Positions 10,264 through 38,648 of a DNA stretch of 64,000 nt are shown here, one piece after another (positions within the stretch are counted from its first letter, which is position 1; the number at the start of each line of letters is the position of its first letter). A program made the position numbers and the translations under genes. Source of the DNA: an uncultured bacterium (GTDB lineage: Bacteria > Cyanobacteriota > Vampirovibrionia > Gastranaerophilales > Gastranaerophilaceae); assembly GCA_949286705.1 (NCBI GenBank), contig CASEDF010000005.1:1-64000 (forward strand). The letters run 5' to 3'. Below the pieces are notes generated by a model. That model did not search any database, had not been told where the DNA came from, and worked only from the letters and a program-made list of their open reading frames with translations.

Positions 10264-10300
10264 TAAAATAAGAGGGGAAATATTTTCCTCTCTTATTTTA
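10264..10300 (-). terminator. Terminator of the RNase P RNA gene
   Basis: A near-perfect inverted repeat, AAAATAAGAGGGGAAA with TTTTCCTCTCTTATTTT, lying just after the 3' end of rnpB on the reverse strand. Confidence 0.75.
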
Positions 10301-10301
10301 T

Positions 10302-10754
10302 AAAGCAGTTCATAAGCCGTGTTCTGTTTCTAGATAATCATCTGTCTGGGAATGCGGTTACCCGCAAACTCTAGCGATTTTTCCGAAGTGGGCGGACAGC
10401 CTTTATAACCTTCGATTTAATCTTGCATTCGACCGGGGGTTGCCTAGCTGATACCTCTCGATACCACTGGTGAAGCTCTTAACTCACCGTTGCACCATCG
10501 CCTGTGATATAAAATCCATCGGCAGTCTCGGCGTTAAGTTTAACGCCTCGAATTATTGGCGGTTCGGAAAAGCGTGGTTTTCCTCACCTGGTCGTGCTGG
10601 GTTCGTGCCTTATGGCACTCACGCGGCGCACTAGCCAAAATTCGACATTTCTGTGGTCCTTTCCACCGACTCACGTCGTCCGGAGTTTCTCCGGCGGCCT
10701 GTCCTTGAATGCACGGACTTTCCTCACATTTCTGCGCGATTATCCGGCTGCTTT
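10302..10754 (-). ncRNA. rnpB: RNase P RNA, bacterial class A
   Basis: The catalytic RNA that trims the 5' leaders of pre-tRNAs. On the reverse strand it starts AAAGCAGCCGGATAATCGCG, followed by the conserved GAGGAAAGTCCG core and GACAGGCCGCCGGAG, and ends with the conserved ACAGAACACGGCTTATGAAC. The 5' and 3' ends pair as expected. Length about 450 bases fits class A, as in cyanobacteria. Ends are set to within a few bases. Confidence 0.95.
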
Positions 10755-10775
10755 ATAGTTTTATTATATCACAAA

Positions 10776-17935: not shown

Positions 17936-18990
17936 ATGAAAAATAGGGTATGCATAAATCTCGGGGGGGGGCGACTCTCCTAGGTATACAGGAAAAGGGT
18001 TTTGACGGTATTGGTTGTGTAAAGTTACTAAGATACTATGGCACTAAGGCACTAAGAAGTAACAGAAAAGTAGGTTGGCATTACCAGACCGACAACGAAA
18101 TTGGCAAAGAAGCAAATGCAAATTATAATTCAGAAAACAAAACCGTGAGCGAAGCTCACAGAAAACACACCCCTCACTCTACTCACGTTAAACAAGAGAT
18201 CCTGAAACGAGTTCAGGATGACAAAAAAACTCACTTCACTCACGTTAAAAAAGCCGCCTTCACGTTAGCCGAGGGTGCTACGCACGTAGACATGTCAGAC
18301 AACATTCATCGTGTCGCGTTTACTCTGGCTGAGGTTTTGATAACCCTCGGTATAATCGGTATTGTAGCAGCAATGACTATCCCTGCGTTAGTTCAAAATT
18401 ATAGGGAAAAAGCCGATGTAATCAGGCTTAAAAAAGCCGTATCTGCTTTGGAGCAGGCAAAACTTATGGCGATAAATGACGGTTTATTTTTAAAACTTAC
18501 GTATCTTCAGGCCGGTGGTGTGTATATTCAAGAAGAACATGAAAAATTCGCAAATTATTTTAAACCATATTTTAAGGTGGCGATTGACTGCGCGCTTCCC
18601 GATGTTTCAAATACGGCATGTATTGGAGATTATGATAATGCTAAAATTTACAAAATTGATAAATTTTCGCAGGCTACAAGCTTAGCACAAAATACGTTTC
18701 GTGGATTTATTACAAATGATGGTATATCTTACTTTTTTTATGCAATGAATGGAACCATTCTAATTGATTTAAATACTCCAAAAAACGGTCCTAATGCATA
18801 TGGACATGACATCTTTAAATTTAATATTGATTCGACCGGAAGATTAGTTGTCTATGGTAATATCGAAACTTTGGAAGAATGTAAGATAACTGGCAGTACT
18901 TGTTCAAATTGGGTAATGAAATATGGTAATAAAGCTTATATTAATTGTCCTGATAAGGTTGAGTACGGGGGTAACATAGCATGTCGTTGA
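17936..18990 (+). CDS. Prepilin-like protein with repeat-rich leader, start out of frame (locus B)
   Basis: The C-terminal part is a prepilin: MSDNIHRVA, then FTLAEVLITLGIIGIVAA and a 220-residue domain with Cys near the end. The ATG at 17936 has AGGAGG eight bases upstream, but the nine G at 17963-17971 put it out of frame, giving a stop after 15 codons. With ten G the reading frame runs through a 128-codon leader into the pilin. The leader includes short palindromic repeats and a first KKAAFTLAE box (18259) 20 codons before the real one (18319). Internal starts at 17950 or 18292 could give pilin without slippage, but neither has a clear ribosome-binding site. Probably co-transcribed with GH13. 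Confidence 0.8.
17963..17971. repeat. G9 homopolymer tract in locus B
   Basis: CTC, nine G, then CGACTCTCC. Same flanks as the tract at 29765 and, inverted, at 128. A tenth G would join the ATG at 17936 to the prepilin frame. Confidence 0.95.
18021..18065. repeat. ACTAAG-rich repeat unit in prepilin leader
   Basis: AAAGTTACTAAG..ACTATGGCACTAAGGCACTAAGAAGTAACAG (shown in part) is nearly identical at 29823-29867, and occurs in the opposite orientation relative to the gene at 38321-38353. Contains GTTACT near its start and AGTAAC near its end, a short terminal inverted repeat. Confidence 0.85.
18145..18223. repeat. Two palindromic REP-like units inside the locus B leader
   Basis: GTGAGCGAAGCTCAC (18145-18159) and, at 18196-18223, GATCCTGAAACGAGTTCAGG plus ATGAC, which translates as EILKRVQDD. 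Related units lie in locus D at 38359-38373 and 38441-38467, where they read SEAHS and EMLKQVQHD. Confidence 0.8.
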
Positions 18991-29737: not shown

Positions 29738-30786
29738 ATGAGAAATACGAAAAAAGAGAAACTCGGGGGGGGGCGACTCCTCCAGGTAGAAATAGCAAGG
29801 TTTTAGGCGGTATTGTTTGGGAAAAGTTACTAAGTTACTATGGCACTAAGGCACTAAGAAGTAACAGCAATGTAAGTCGGCATTACCAAGCCGACAGAAA
29901 AATTTACACCCCTCACTTCACTCACGCTATTCACGTTAAAAAAGCCGCCTTCACGTTAGCCGAGTGTGCTACGCACGTAGACATGTCAGATAACATTCGT
30001 CGTGTCGCGTTTACTTTGGCTGAAGTCCTTATAACCCTTGGTATAATCGGGATTGTGGCTGCGATGACGATACCGACAATTTCACATAACATTCAGCAGG
30101 CAGTATTAAAAAATCAATTCAAGAAATTTTACAGCACTTTCTGGCAGGCAGTAATCGGGATACAAACAAAAGAGGGCAGACCTGTACAGTGTTATTATTG
30201 GGATGGCACAAATCCATATACGGGCAAATGCACCCCGACATGTGATGAAGATGAAAAAAATCAATACGGTAACTGTACTGTATATAGGTGTGCGGAAACA
30301 GGAGAACCCATTCCGACGGATATAAACGGTCTAAGCTCAGAGTGCAGTGATTTTTACGAAGAATTGTTTTTAAGAACATTGAAAACAACAAAAATATGCA
30401 AAGATAAGGCATATGAACAGGGCTGCCTGCCGAAAGACTTTAGAGGTGCGGATGTTGTAAAATCAGAACAAAATCCGGATAAAGAATATGACCCTGCAGG
30501 AATTTTTGCTGATTCCCCTGTGAAAAATAAATATCCTGTATTTGTTTTAGCTGACGGAACATATATTGTATGTTATAGTACTCGTTATTTAGCGGGTTTG
30601 CCTATTTTTGTTGCGGACATAAATGGTGCTAAAGGTCCAAACAAATGGGGTTATGATATATTTACCTTTGGTTTTTCAGGGAATAGAAATGCAGGTATAG
30701 CTTCAATTATCCAACGCCCCTTCAATTATGCAACTGAAAAAGGCGGGAAAACCTTTCAACAGATGTATGAAGAATGTTTTAAATAG
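29738..30786 (+). CDS. Prepilin-like protein with repeat-rich leader, start out of frame (locus C)
   Basis: The prepilin part starts MSDNIRRVA (29983), then FTLAEVLITLGIIGIVAA and a domain with four to six Cys (CYYWDG, CTPTCDEDEKNQYGNC). The ATG at 29738 has a promoter and AAGGAG, but the nine G at 29765-29773 put it out of frame, and translation would stop after about 22 codons. With ten G the frame is open for a 91-codon leader into the pilin, passing a first VKKAAFTLAE box (29950) exactly 20 codons before the true one (30010), as in locus B. An internal start at 29983 would give a good short leader but has no clear ribosome-binding site. Ends 8 bases into rsmD. Confidence 0.82.
29765..29773. 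repeat. G9 homopolymer tract in locus C
   Basis: CTC, nine G, CGACTCCTCC. Same flanks as locus B. Ten G would bring the upstream ATG into the prepilin frame. Confidence 0.95.
29823..29867. repeat. ACTAAG-rich repeat unit, second copy
   Basis: Nearly identical to 18021-18065; both lie at the same distance after the G tract, so the leaders of loci B and C derive from a common ancestor or by copying. Confidence 0.85.
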
Positions 30787-37405: not shown

Positions 37406-38648
37406 CTAGCGGCAAGAATGTTTGCCGTTCCACGATAAATCATCACAATCCCAGTAATCCATATTGCCGTTATAAATTACCCATGCTGTACATGTTATAT
37501 TAATTCCCGTATAAGTTTTATTCAGACAGGCATTCTCAAAAGATGAACCAGTATATGTTCTGTTGGGCATGCCTTGCGGTAAAATCCCATCACGATATAT
37601 ATCAAATTTAAATACGTCTTTTCCGATTTGATTTGGTGAAGCGCTTCCGTTTAAATCTACTGTAACGGTTCCGCAATTTCTAAAATACAATTCGCGTTCT
37701 TCAGTGGAATTTTTATATGCTTGACACCATACTTCTGCAGCGTTGTCTCCGTTCGACCCTAAAAATTTTATTGAGGTACCATTATTGAGTATAAAAGTTT
37801 TTTTCATTCTTCCCGGATGATCCAGATAAGATTTATCCAGTTTGTAGTAGTCTTTACCCCAGCAGGCTGTATATATTTTTTCATCATTGCTTGCTTCACA
37901 TGTTCTTAAAATTTTAAGAAATTGAGGCATAATTTTATTGTATATCGGTTCTATATCGTATCTATTATTTGCTCCCCAAAAATTAATCGGTCCATATTCC
38001 TTAATCGCCATATCAAATGCACTGTTCAGGATACTGTAGGTGTTTTTTAATTTTGTTACGAATACTTTTTCTCGATAATTCGCAACCAGCGTCGGAATAG
38101 TCATGGCGGCAACAATGCCGATTATGCCGAGGGTTATTAAAACCTCAGCGAGGGTAAACGCAGCACGACGAATATTGTCAAACATGTCTACGTGTCTTGG
38201 ATTGTGCACAGCTCGCAAAAGCGTGGTTTTGCTCGCAGGGACGAACTCGCTGCGCTCCGTTCTTGTGCAAATCCGCTGCGTAGCACCTTCCGCCAGAGTA
38301 AACGCGACTTTTTTAGAAGATACTAAGTTACTAAGGCAGTAAGGCACTAAGAATTTACTGTGAGCTTCGCTCACGGTTTTGTCACAGTCTTGCCCCTCTC
38401 CCTTAATCCCTCTCCCCTGGGGGCGAGGGGAGGTATTTTTGTCATGCTGAACTTGTTTCAGCATCTCATTAACTTTTTGCGATCCTTCGGCTAACGCCTC
38501 AGGATGACCTGTAAAATTCCAAAAAGCCCTAGAATGTTGTTGTGCCTTTGGCACCTCAGGATGACCTGAAAAAGAGTAGTGTTCGGAGGTTAAGCTACTG
38601 CCCCCCCCCCCTGGCTGAAAAGTAGTTGTGATAAGTGTTTGCGTCCAT
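37406..38648 (-). CDS. Prepilin-like protein with repeat-rich leader, start out of frame (locus D)
   Basis: The prepilin part (DNIRRAA, FTLAEVLITLGIIGIVAA, then a 230-residue domain with several Cys and a closing GKHSC) lies at 37406-38180. The ATG at 38648 has GGAGG six bases upstream and a promoter, but eleven G (coding strand; 38601-38611) put it out of frame; translation would stop after 17 codons. With ten G the frame runs 163 codons to the pilin. Between tract and pilin lie REP-like palindromes, ACTAAG repeats, a first VAFTLAE box (38302) and an 84-base insertion (38195-38278), all open in frame. The GTG at 38554 or the internal Met before DNIRR are alternative starts. Confidence 0.8.
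38195..38278. repeat. 84-base in-frame palindromic insertion in locus D leader
   Basis: In loci B and C the sequence runs GCTACGCA directly into CGTAGACATG; in locus D the same flanks are separated by 84 extra bases (28 codons, frame kept). The insert contains the palindrome GAACGGAGCGCAGCGAGTTC and TTGCACAA near one end with TTGTGCACA near the other (strands differ). Confidence 0.75.
38321..38353. repeat. ACTAAG-rich repeat, inverted copy
   Basis: TACTAAGTTACTAAGGCAGT and AAGGCACTAAGAA on the plus strand, whereas the prepilin is on the minus strand, so the unit is inverted compared with loci B and C. Confidence 0.75.
38359..38467. repeat. Cluster of three palindromic REP-like units
   Basis: GTGAGCTTCGCTCAC (38359-38373), CCCTCTCCCCTGGGGGCGAG with GGGA (about 38408-38432), and GTCATGCTGAACTTGTTTCA with GCATCTC (38441-38467). 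The first and third also occur in locus B; the second is similar to the stem at 52459-52479. All lie inside the open leader of the locus D prepilin. Confidence 0.8.
38601..38611. repeat. C11/G11 homopolymer tract in locus D
   Basis: Eleven C on the plus strand. Flanks differ from the other three tracts (TACTG before, TGGCT after). Loss of one base, to ten, joins the ATG at 38648 with the prepilin frame. Confidence 0.95.

Follow-up and report, generated by a model that had tools for sequence, protein, structure and literature searches.

Tiny folded elements of Gastranaerophilales, probably mobile, form a family not filed before, with a copy in frame in a pilin-like leader

Nostoc and other cyanobacteria, a related phylum, have small dispersed repeats that are mobile and carry no transposase. 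For the Rickettsia palindromic elements (RPEs) we know of no mobiliser. In the excerpts of PMC3767692 and PMC10969869 that deal with them, RPEs (Ogata et al. 2000, 2002) are short structured repeats that occur between genes and also inside genes, where the frame is not broken; their reported hosts are Rickettsia and Wolbachia, and in R. conorii almost half of them fall within open reading frames. REPs, as outlined in part of PMC3733652 (Di Nocera et al. 2013), are GTAG- or CGTC-tagged palindromes of 20-40 bp, some of which have entered other palindromes; T. roseum has hundreds of targets that are still free. REP-targeting insertion sequences include IS1397, ISKpn1, IS621, ISPsy8 and others, according to excerpts of PMC1525189 (Tobes and Pareja 2006).

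The family described here consists of tiny folded elements, probably able to jump, in Gastranaerophilales of the gut, and had not been filed before. It was recognized in a window of 64,000 nucleotides, the whole stretch of DNA analysed, from a genome of 1.85 Mb. Three prepilin-like genes in the window, loci B, C and D, carry FTLAEVLITLG motifs. At locus B (18277-18294, plus strand) and locus C (29968-29985, plus strand) the sequence is GCTACGCA-CGTAGACATG, with the flanks joined directly (fuller read GCTACGCACGTAGACATG). At locus D, which runs on the minus strand, these flanks are separated by 84 extra bases, and the palindrome CTACGCACGTAG, intact in B and C, is thereby interrupted. The original prediction, made from the sequence alone, was of 84 in-frame bases added in D and absent from B and C, and it is confirmed. 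The D insert belongs to a family whose ends are GCGGATT...AATCCAAGACA. Members of this family share a conserved three-way-junction fold and insert precisely, hairpin loops being among the sites entered. We consider it likely that the family is mobile and non-autonomous and that the D copy was duplicated within a leader unit. The features of the three loci are as follows.

37406-38554, minus strand: locus D open frame, a leader with the element followed by a prepilin-like protein (Pfam N_methyl PF07963)
38159-38302, minus strand: leader unit from one FTLAE motif to the other, 144 bases long against 60 in B and C
38601-38611, minus strand: 11-base G tract between an ATG preceded by a Shine-Dalgarno sequence (38648-38646) and the leader, with the pilin out of frame in the assembly
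38193-38276, minus strand: element, 84 bases, GCGGATTTGCAC...AATCCAAGACA, boundaries from relatives
38265-38274, minus strand: 5' arm of stem P1, GGATTTGCAC (alignment fold A1)
38199-38209, minus strand: 3' arm of stem P1, with one bulged base (alignment fold)
38243-38262, minus strand: hairpin P2, GAACGGAGCGCAGCGAGTTC (alignment fold)
38210-38237, minus strand: hairpin P3, with internal GA/GA and loop CCACGC (alignment fold)
38277-38283, minus strand: CTACGCA, left half of the host palindrome that the element splits (comparison with B and C)
38188-38192, minus strand: CGTAG, right half of the host palindrome that the element splits (comparison with B and C)
18277-18288, plus strand: intact (empty) palindrome of locus B
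29968-29979, plus strand: intact (empty) palindrome of locus C

The insert had been placed at 38195-38278. These positions and 38193-38276 (GCGG...AAGACA) describe one insertion event, because the dinucleotide CA is present at both ends, and 38193-38276 (GCGGATT to AATCCAAGACA) is taken as the natural unit because relatives show these boundaries. The reading frame is preserved, FTLAE and FTLAE being 144 bases apart in D versus 60 at the other two loci. Of the three frames of the D leader, the pilin frame is open and the others contain 14 and 7 stops; this openness was equalled in 14 of 20000 dinucleotide shuffles. The D copy of the element is open in all six frames, as were 139 of 5000 shuffles. 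Its middle hairpin, GAACGGAGCGCAGCGAGTTC of P2, occurs once in the window (0 expected by chance).

Across the family, copies are about 65-146 bases long with the exact ends 5'-GCGGATT ... AATCCAAGACA-3', and 24 diverse copies align end to end with a single common fold, a three-way junction. P1 comprises 10 pairs and closes the element, P2 is variable in length, and P3 carries a tandem GA and a CCACGC loop. The insert had been called palindromic with inverted ends; the TTGCACAA-type ends are indeed inverted and form the closing stem P1, but the element as a whole folds as a three-way junction and not as a simple palindrome. Compensatory changes on both sides were found in 14 of the 23 base pairs of the 24-copy alignment, and 98.0% of paired cells were able to pair, versus 82.9% with shuffled partners and 30-46% with slid partners. 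The single-sequence folding energy of the D insert is unexceptional (RNA z -0.89, DNA z -0.85); the structure rests on covariation across copies, and on the same grounds a chance hairpin was rejected. When 15 loci were compared with the 4227 families of Rfam, with E values as high as 5 and 3 admitted, no convincing match over the element emerged, the sole weak overlap being PtaRNA1 at one locus (L044), far below the gathering score. A known RNA family or group II intron was accordingly rejected, and no catalytic core such as known introns or ribozymes possess was found over the element in Rfam.

The distribution of the family was assessed in 118 related genomes, the window's own genome included. 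Copies were found in 17 of the 118 by blastn and in 56 of the 118 using a covariance model built from the 24 aligned copies (E <= 0.01), which bears out the suspicion that the insert belongs to a repeat with copies elsewhere. By model match alone, carriers number 52 of 72 in the family Gastranaerophilaceae, 4 of 22 in the order's other families and 0 of 24 outside the order, with up to at least 38 copies scored in a genome. In the window's own genome, blastn gave no second close copy, the only other match being 22 bases in rnpB; the covariance model recovered the D copy (95 bits), the rnpB copy and five longer relatives of 115-130 bases that have the same ends and weak scores of 32 to 20 bits. 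Nine exact AATCCAAGAC sites are present in this genome, of which six end a recognised element, one is a fragment beside one, and two have no left end within 150 bases upstream; an autonomous copy in this genome was rejected after inspection of all nine.

A 20-base gapped pattern retrieved 103 stretches from a named genome collection, of which the 80 listed were tested with the model and the remaining 23 entered script counts only. The model matched 77 of the 80, and the three that failed (a spirochaete, a proteobacterium and Caballeronia) look like chance. The 77 loci are titled Gastranaerophilales, Melainabacteria, Cyanobacteria, uncultured bacterium or bin Gx481_bin9. The last is titled Heliobacteriaceae (L162 and other JAISCP loci), and its contigs match a genome (G035) of the Gastranaerophilales family, so the title is probably wrong. 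Among the candidates rejected were a plasmid-borne repeat, of which none was found, and a virus-borne repeat, with 0 exact matches in viral contigs. In the open-licence literature we found no description of the family for Melainabacteria or Gastranaerophilales, and none of mobile elements with a three-way junction.

Copies occupy the centres of several unrelated palindromic repeats, and the same target palindromes are found both empty and occupied. The following counts were made distinct by 15-base context, with loci that overlap in part; a slash marks the insertion point. Empty versus occupied sites numbered 47 versus 36-40 for CTACGCACGTAG (CTACGCA/CGTAG), 76 versus 18-20 for CTGAAACAAGTTCAG (CTGAAACA/AGTTCAG, outer stems variable), 67 versus 7-10 for CTGAACTnGTTTCAG, the same palindrome type in reverse orientation (CTGAACTT/GTTTCAG), 3 versus 5 for CCGGGTCA/AGCCCGG, 1 versus 2-3 for GCGAGGA/ACGAAG, and 13 versus 4 for TCATTCTGA/GCGCAGCGAAGAATC, with one or more of these 13 empty sites lying in a non-carrier (L183). 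An empty CTGAAACAAGTTCAG is present within the D leader itself. Occupied and empty sites are separated by the element alone, with a possible duplication of at most one A, and insertion is precise and without clear target duplication.

When the flanks were rejoined, a perfect stem of at least 5 bp was formed in 39 of 117 distinct junctions (33%), versus a mean of 7.3% for swapped flanks (largest of 200 controls, 13.7%) and 5.6% for random positions. The table of element boundaries comprised 161 rows, one of them empty, leaving 160 copies. Target clustering was performed on 147 copies, from which 20 tandem copies (copies lying end to end also occur) were dropped, and the 127 non-tandem copies fell into 31 target families. 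Stems of at least 5 bp were found in seven of the 31, versus a swapped mean of 1.1 and a maximum of 5. The mean energy of -3.80 was outside all 200 controls, none of which was lower than -3.60; the mean number of junction-spanning pairs, 4.65, was within the control range of 1.9-5.8, and the fraction of families with at least seven such pairs equalled the largest control and did not exceed it. Since the excess shrinks upon collapse to 31 families, many targets are not visible hairpins. Taken together, the junctions indicate that hairpin loops are preferred as targets, though not all targets are hairpins. At the left end, A occupies position -1 in 20 of the 31 target clusters, and nothing is fixed at positions -2 to -4.

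Some longer copies lie in duplicated tRNA 3' ends. Behind tRNA-Gly, tRNA-Lys and tRNA-Asp of the window's own genome, a longer copy interrupts a repeated 3' end of the respective tRNA at the T-loop, and for a fourth, behind tRNA-Arg, the T-loop case is less clear. In another genome, the copy at L256 splits the duplicated 3' end of a tRNA-Arg in the T-loop. The four elements of the own genome (G000) that lie behind intact tRNA genes (L084-L087) are at these positions.

C9:41739-41853: longer element behind an intact tRNA gene
C3:118358-118487: longer element behind an intact tRNA gene
C4:152114-152233: longer element behind an intact tRNA gene
C1:203130-203249: longer element behind an intact tRNA gene

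The split 3' ends at these four loci are displaced second copies, the tRNA genes themselves being intact. At two further loci, L083 (G000 C4:185461-185581) and L239, the element stands at a gene end and its first base supplies the last letter of a TAG stop codon. The L083 copy lies between two genes, and L239 likewise adjoins genes, which we take to be ribosomal protein genes.

The gene for RNase P RNA provides a target site at which the direction of change can be read. It too lies in the window.

10297-10755, minus strand: rnpB gene (Rfam RF00010), with a long insertion after ACAGAAA
10545-10645, minus strand: diverged element copy within rnpB (R1 match, 70.9 bits, E 7.4e-15)

The extra domain of about 116 bases in this gene consists of the diverged element copy and a short hairpin. 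Twenty of 24 rnpB genes were parsed. Full copies are present in five genomes of one genus (G000, G002, G009, G011 and G015), the copy is decayed in G012, and G013 has another stretch of 68 bases at the insertion site. The site is empty (7-8 bases) in two members of the genus, G004 and G006, and in all 11 genes parsed from other genera. Because the outgroups are empty at the same orthologous site of this essential gene, the rnpB insert is read as a gain. Its ends are diverged, and it is an old copy.

Most copies of the family lie outside genes, and 16 of the 160 are in a frame that stays open for 45 codons or more to either side. Of these 16, three do not convince: L045 and L071 have no evident gene, and L255 is probably a false element. 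Twelve are in pilin-like leaders, where more than one frame is used and one copy is on the opposite strand. The remaining copy is inserted in frame in a glycosyltransferase of 424 residues (Pfam Glycos_transf_1) in G065, and we take this as evidence that family members can sit within real coding sequence. The insert is common to G065 and G030 (95% identity), two species of one genus, and eight glycosyltransferase homologues from other genera match only up to residues 256-258, the start of the insert; in a further comparison, 4 of 9 homologues passed the filter. As the insert is confined to one genus and the homologues stop at the insertion point, gain is favored over loss here also. The family as a whole has not been tuned for coding tolerance: 47 distinct cores had an average of 2.87 open frames of six versus 2.34 in shuffles, with one core open in all six, and family-wide selection for open frames was rejected, stops being avoided only slightly. 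With copies and empty sites elsewhere, the proposal of a small mobile repeat able to enter coding sequence without breaking it is supported.

The history of the D copy itself is less direct. The ortholog of D in G011 (94% identity) is without the element and without the whole leader unit, and its leader runs KKPAFTLAEVLITLA where D has its second FTLAE 144 bases upstream. Empty and occupied leader units stand side by side in a gene of G029 (L035), and pilin genes of G001 and G010 contain near-identical occupied units. Since the G011 ortholog lacks the whole unit, it appears that the D element came inside a copied 144-base unit. Where the original prediction saw an insertion at D, the extra element is confirmed, but it probably arrived with the copied leader unit and not by its own insertion at D. 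The element would have entered the CTACGCACGTAG palindrome once in a pilin-leader unit, and unit and passenger would then have been copied between pilin genes. The 84-base copy was presumably tolerated because the leader is variable, the length is divisible by three and there is no stop codon.

The same loci raise the question of whether the element is itself still active, as the elements and flanks in the pilin loci of G000, G001 and G010 are 92-99% identical between genes and two target clusters contain 42 and 19 of the 127 non-tandem copies. Both would be expected if the element no longer moved and were only a passenger of host repeats, spread by recombination or gene conversion. We consider this unlikely: independent insertions are needed at some time to account for the 31 target clusters, for the use of the CTGAAAC/GTTCAG palindrome in either orientation, and for the single insertions in rnpB, tRNA T-loops and the glycosyltransferase. 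A deletion history, with D ancestral and a hairpin between two CA dinucleotides lost from B and C, is more improbable still. CTACGCA and CACGTAG do share CA, slippage deletion would give the B and C sequence exactly, and stem-forming sequence favors deletion of that type, but the element lies precisely in many unrelated palindromes, the D ortholog of G011 has neither element nor unit, the rnpB site is empty throughout the 11 genes parsed outside the genus, and the glycosyltransferase copy is confined to one genus. An ancestral insert was thus not borne out where polarity is readable. Individual loss in B or C may still have taken place, being compatible with the data.

Other observations concern the leaders. 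The leader unit duplicates the prepilin motif FTLAE in B, C and D (window positions 18259-18337, 29950-30028 and, on the minus strand, 38158-38302), which gives two possible processing motifs in series. The D leader at 38277-38600 (minus strand) is a mosaic of dispersed repeats in one open frame, for example GTCATCCTGAGGCGTTAGCCGAAGGATC, CTGAAACAAGTTCAGCATGAC and CCGTGAGCGAAGCTCAC, and some of these recur in the leader of the G011 ortholog. An ATG, a run of 9-11 G and a long leader are found at 17936-18337, at 29738-30028, at 38158-38648 (minus strand), in G011 (C7, L278) and at L291 and L304 of the own genome. The start codon of such prepilin genes is an ATG with a Shine-Dalgarno sequence, or GTG in L291, and the leader is open in the pilin frame only. 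With the number of G observed, the ATG is out of frame in B, C and D, and 10 G would place all three in frame; L304 has 10 G and is in frame. The poly-G tract of these prepilin genes looks like phase variation.

It is hypothesized that the element would move as a folded single strand, and that a trans-acting factor would recognise the three-way junction and join the element into exposed hairpin loops, such as the centres of palindromic repeats and tRNA T-loops. We infer movement from static assemblies, most of which are metagenome bins. Further, and only tentatively, insertion may be directed by the shape of the target and not its sequence, through a putative enzyme, the shape being an exposed hairpin loop of a palindromic repeat, a tRNA T-arm or another structured site; in some species of one genus the element would have settled as a stable domain of RNase P RNA. 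This combined reading is possible, and we hold it with clearly less confidence than mobility itself.

Candidate mobilisers were sought among transposases and reverse transcriptases. IS110 was rejected, with matches in the family only in G021, G030 and G052 and not in G000, G007, G029 or G035. Because metagenome bins often lose repeated genes, absence of candidate genes is weak evidence. Y1 was rejected as well, on account of copy-rich genomes without Y1 and of Y1 genes with no copy nearby. As an explanation for the family, a miniature element of a Y1 (HUH, RAYT, IS200-like) transposase, moved as single-stranded DNA, is nonetheless slightly more plausible than the passenger account, although we think it on balance unlikely. 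It would agree with a structure-dependent element, the lack of target duplication and the hairpin targets; the window's own genome has one Y1 gene, and the element occurs in 24 of 27 Y1-bearing genomes of the family versus 28 of 45 without Y1 (Fisher p 0.012, kinship ignored). Y1 is, however, absent from G007, G029, G035, G043, G048, G060 and G065, each of which has at least 10 copies, no copy lies in any of 20 regions surrounding Y1 genes, and no conserved tetranucleotide precedes the left end.

Movement through RNA, in which a transcribed three-way junction would enter RNA hairpin loops and be reverse-transcribed back in the manner of an intron, would fit the conserved unpaired bases, the tandem GA in P3, the T-loop and rnpB targets and the precise insertion without duplication. 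This route is very doubtful, given that five copy-rich genomes (G007, G016, G020, G026 and G035) lack RVT_1 and that Rfam gave no known intron or ribozyme core; RVT_1 was rejected as the mobiliser on the first of these grounds. We favor the non-autonomous DNA element moved in trans.

Gene-less palindromes inside genes were formerly a Rickettsia curiosity, and the present family is an independent case in Melainabacteria. The fold is conserved, the ends are sharp, empty sites are many and the targets form a natural set (repeat loops, T-loops, rnpB, a pilin leader and an enzyme), which would make the question of the mobiliser testable. The rnpB and glycosyltransferase copies are natural examples of new RNA and protein segments from mobile DNA.

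Among known systems, a classical MITE of the DDE type has terminal inverted repeats and a target duplication; here, occupied and empty sites differ by the element alone. A miniature IS200/IS605 element would have a fixed tetranucleotide at its left end, which is missing. The REP-targeting insertion sequences, as they appear in the excerpted account, resemble our element in their specific insertion into palindromic repeats but are autonomous and carry a transposase; the element has no gene, and the IS110 transposases expected for an IS110/IS1111 miniature are nearly absent from carriers. From REPs as described in the part of the source cited above, the element is distinguished by its 65-146 bases and untagged ends, and it enters REP-like repeats rather than being one; neither a GTAG or CGTC tag nor a linked RAYT was found, as seen in the 20 Y1 regions lacking a copy. 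The Nostoc-type repeats are likened to it by description. RPEs, again by their description in the excerpts, are set apart by host and structure: the confirmed carriers of our element are Gastranaerophilales and not Rickettsiales, most copies lie outside genes, and the element sits inside other palindromes and shares one three-way junction, in which RPEs differ. Within genes, 12 of 160 copies lie in pilin-like leaders and one of 160 in a glycosyltransferase. By analogy, then, the element appears to work like an RPE, being small, structured and tolerated in frame, with a different structure and in a different phylum.
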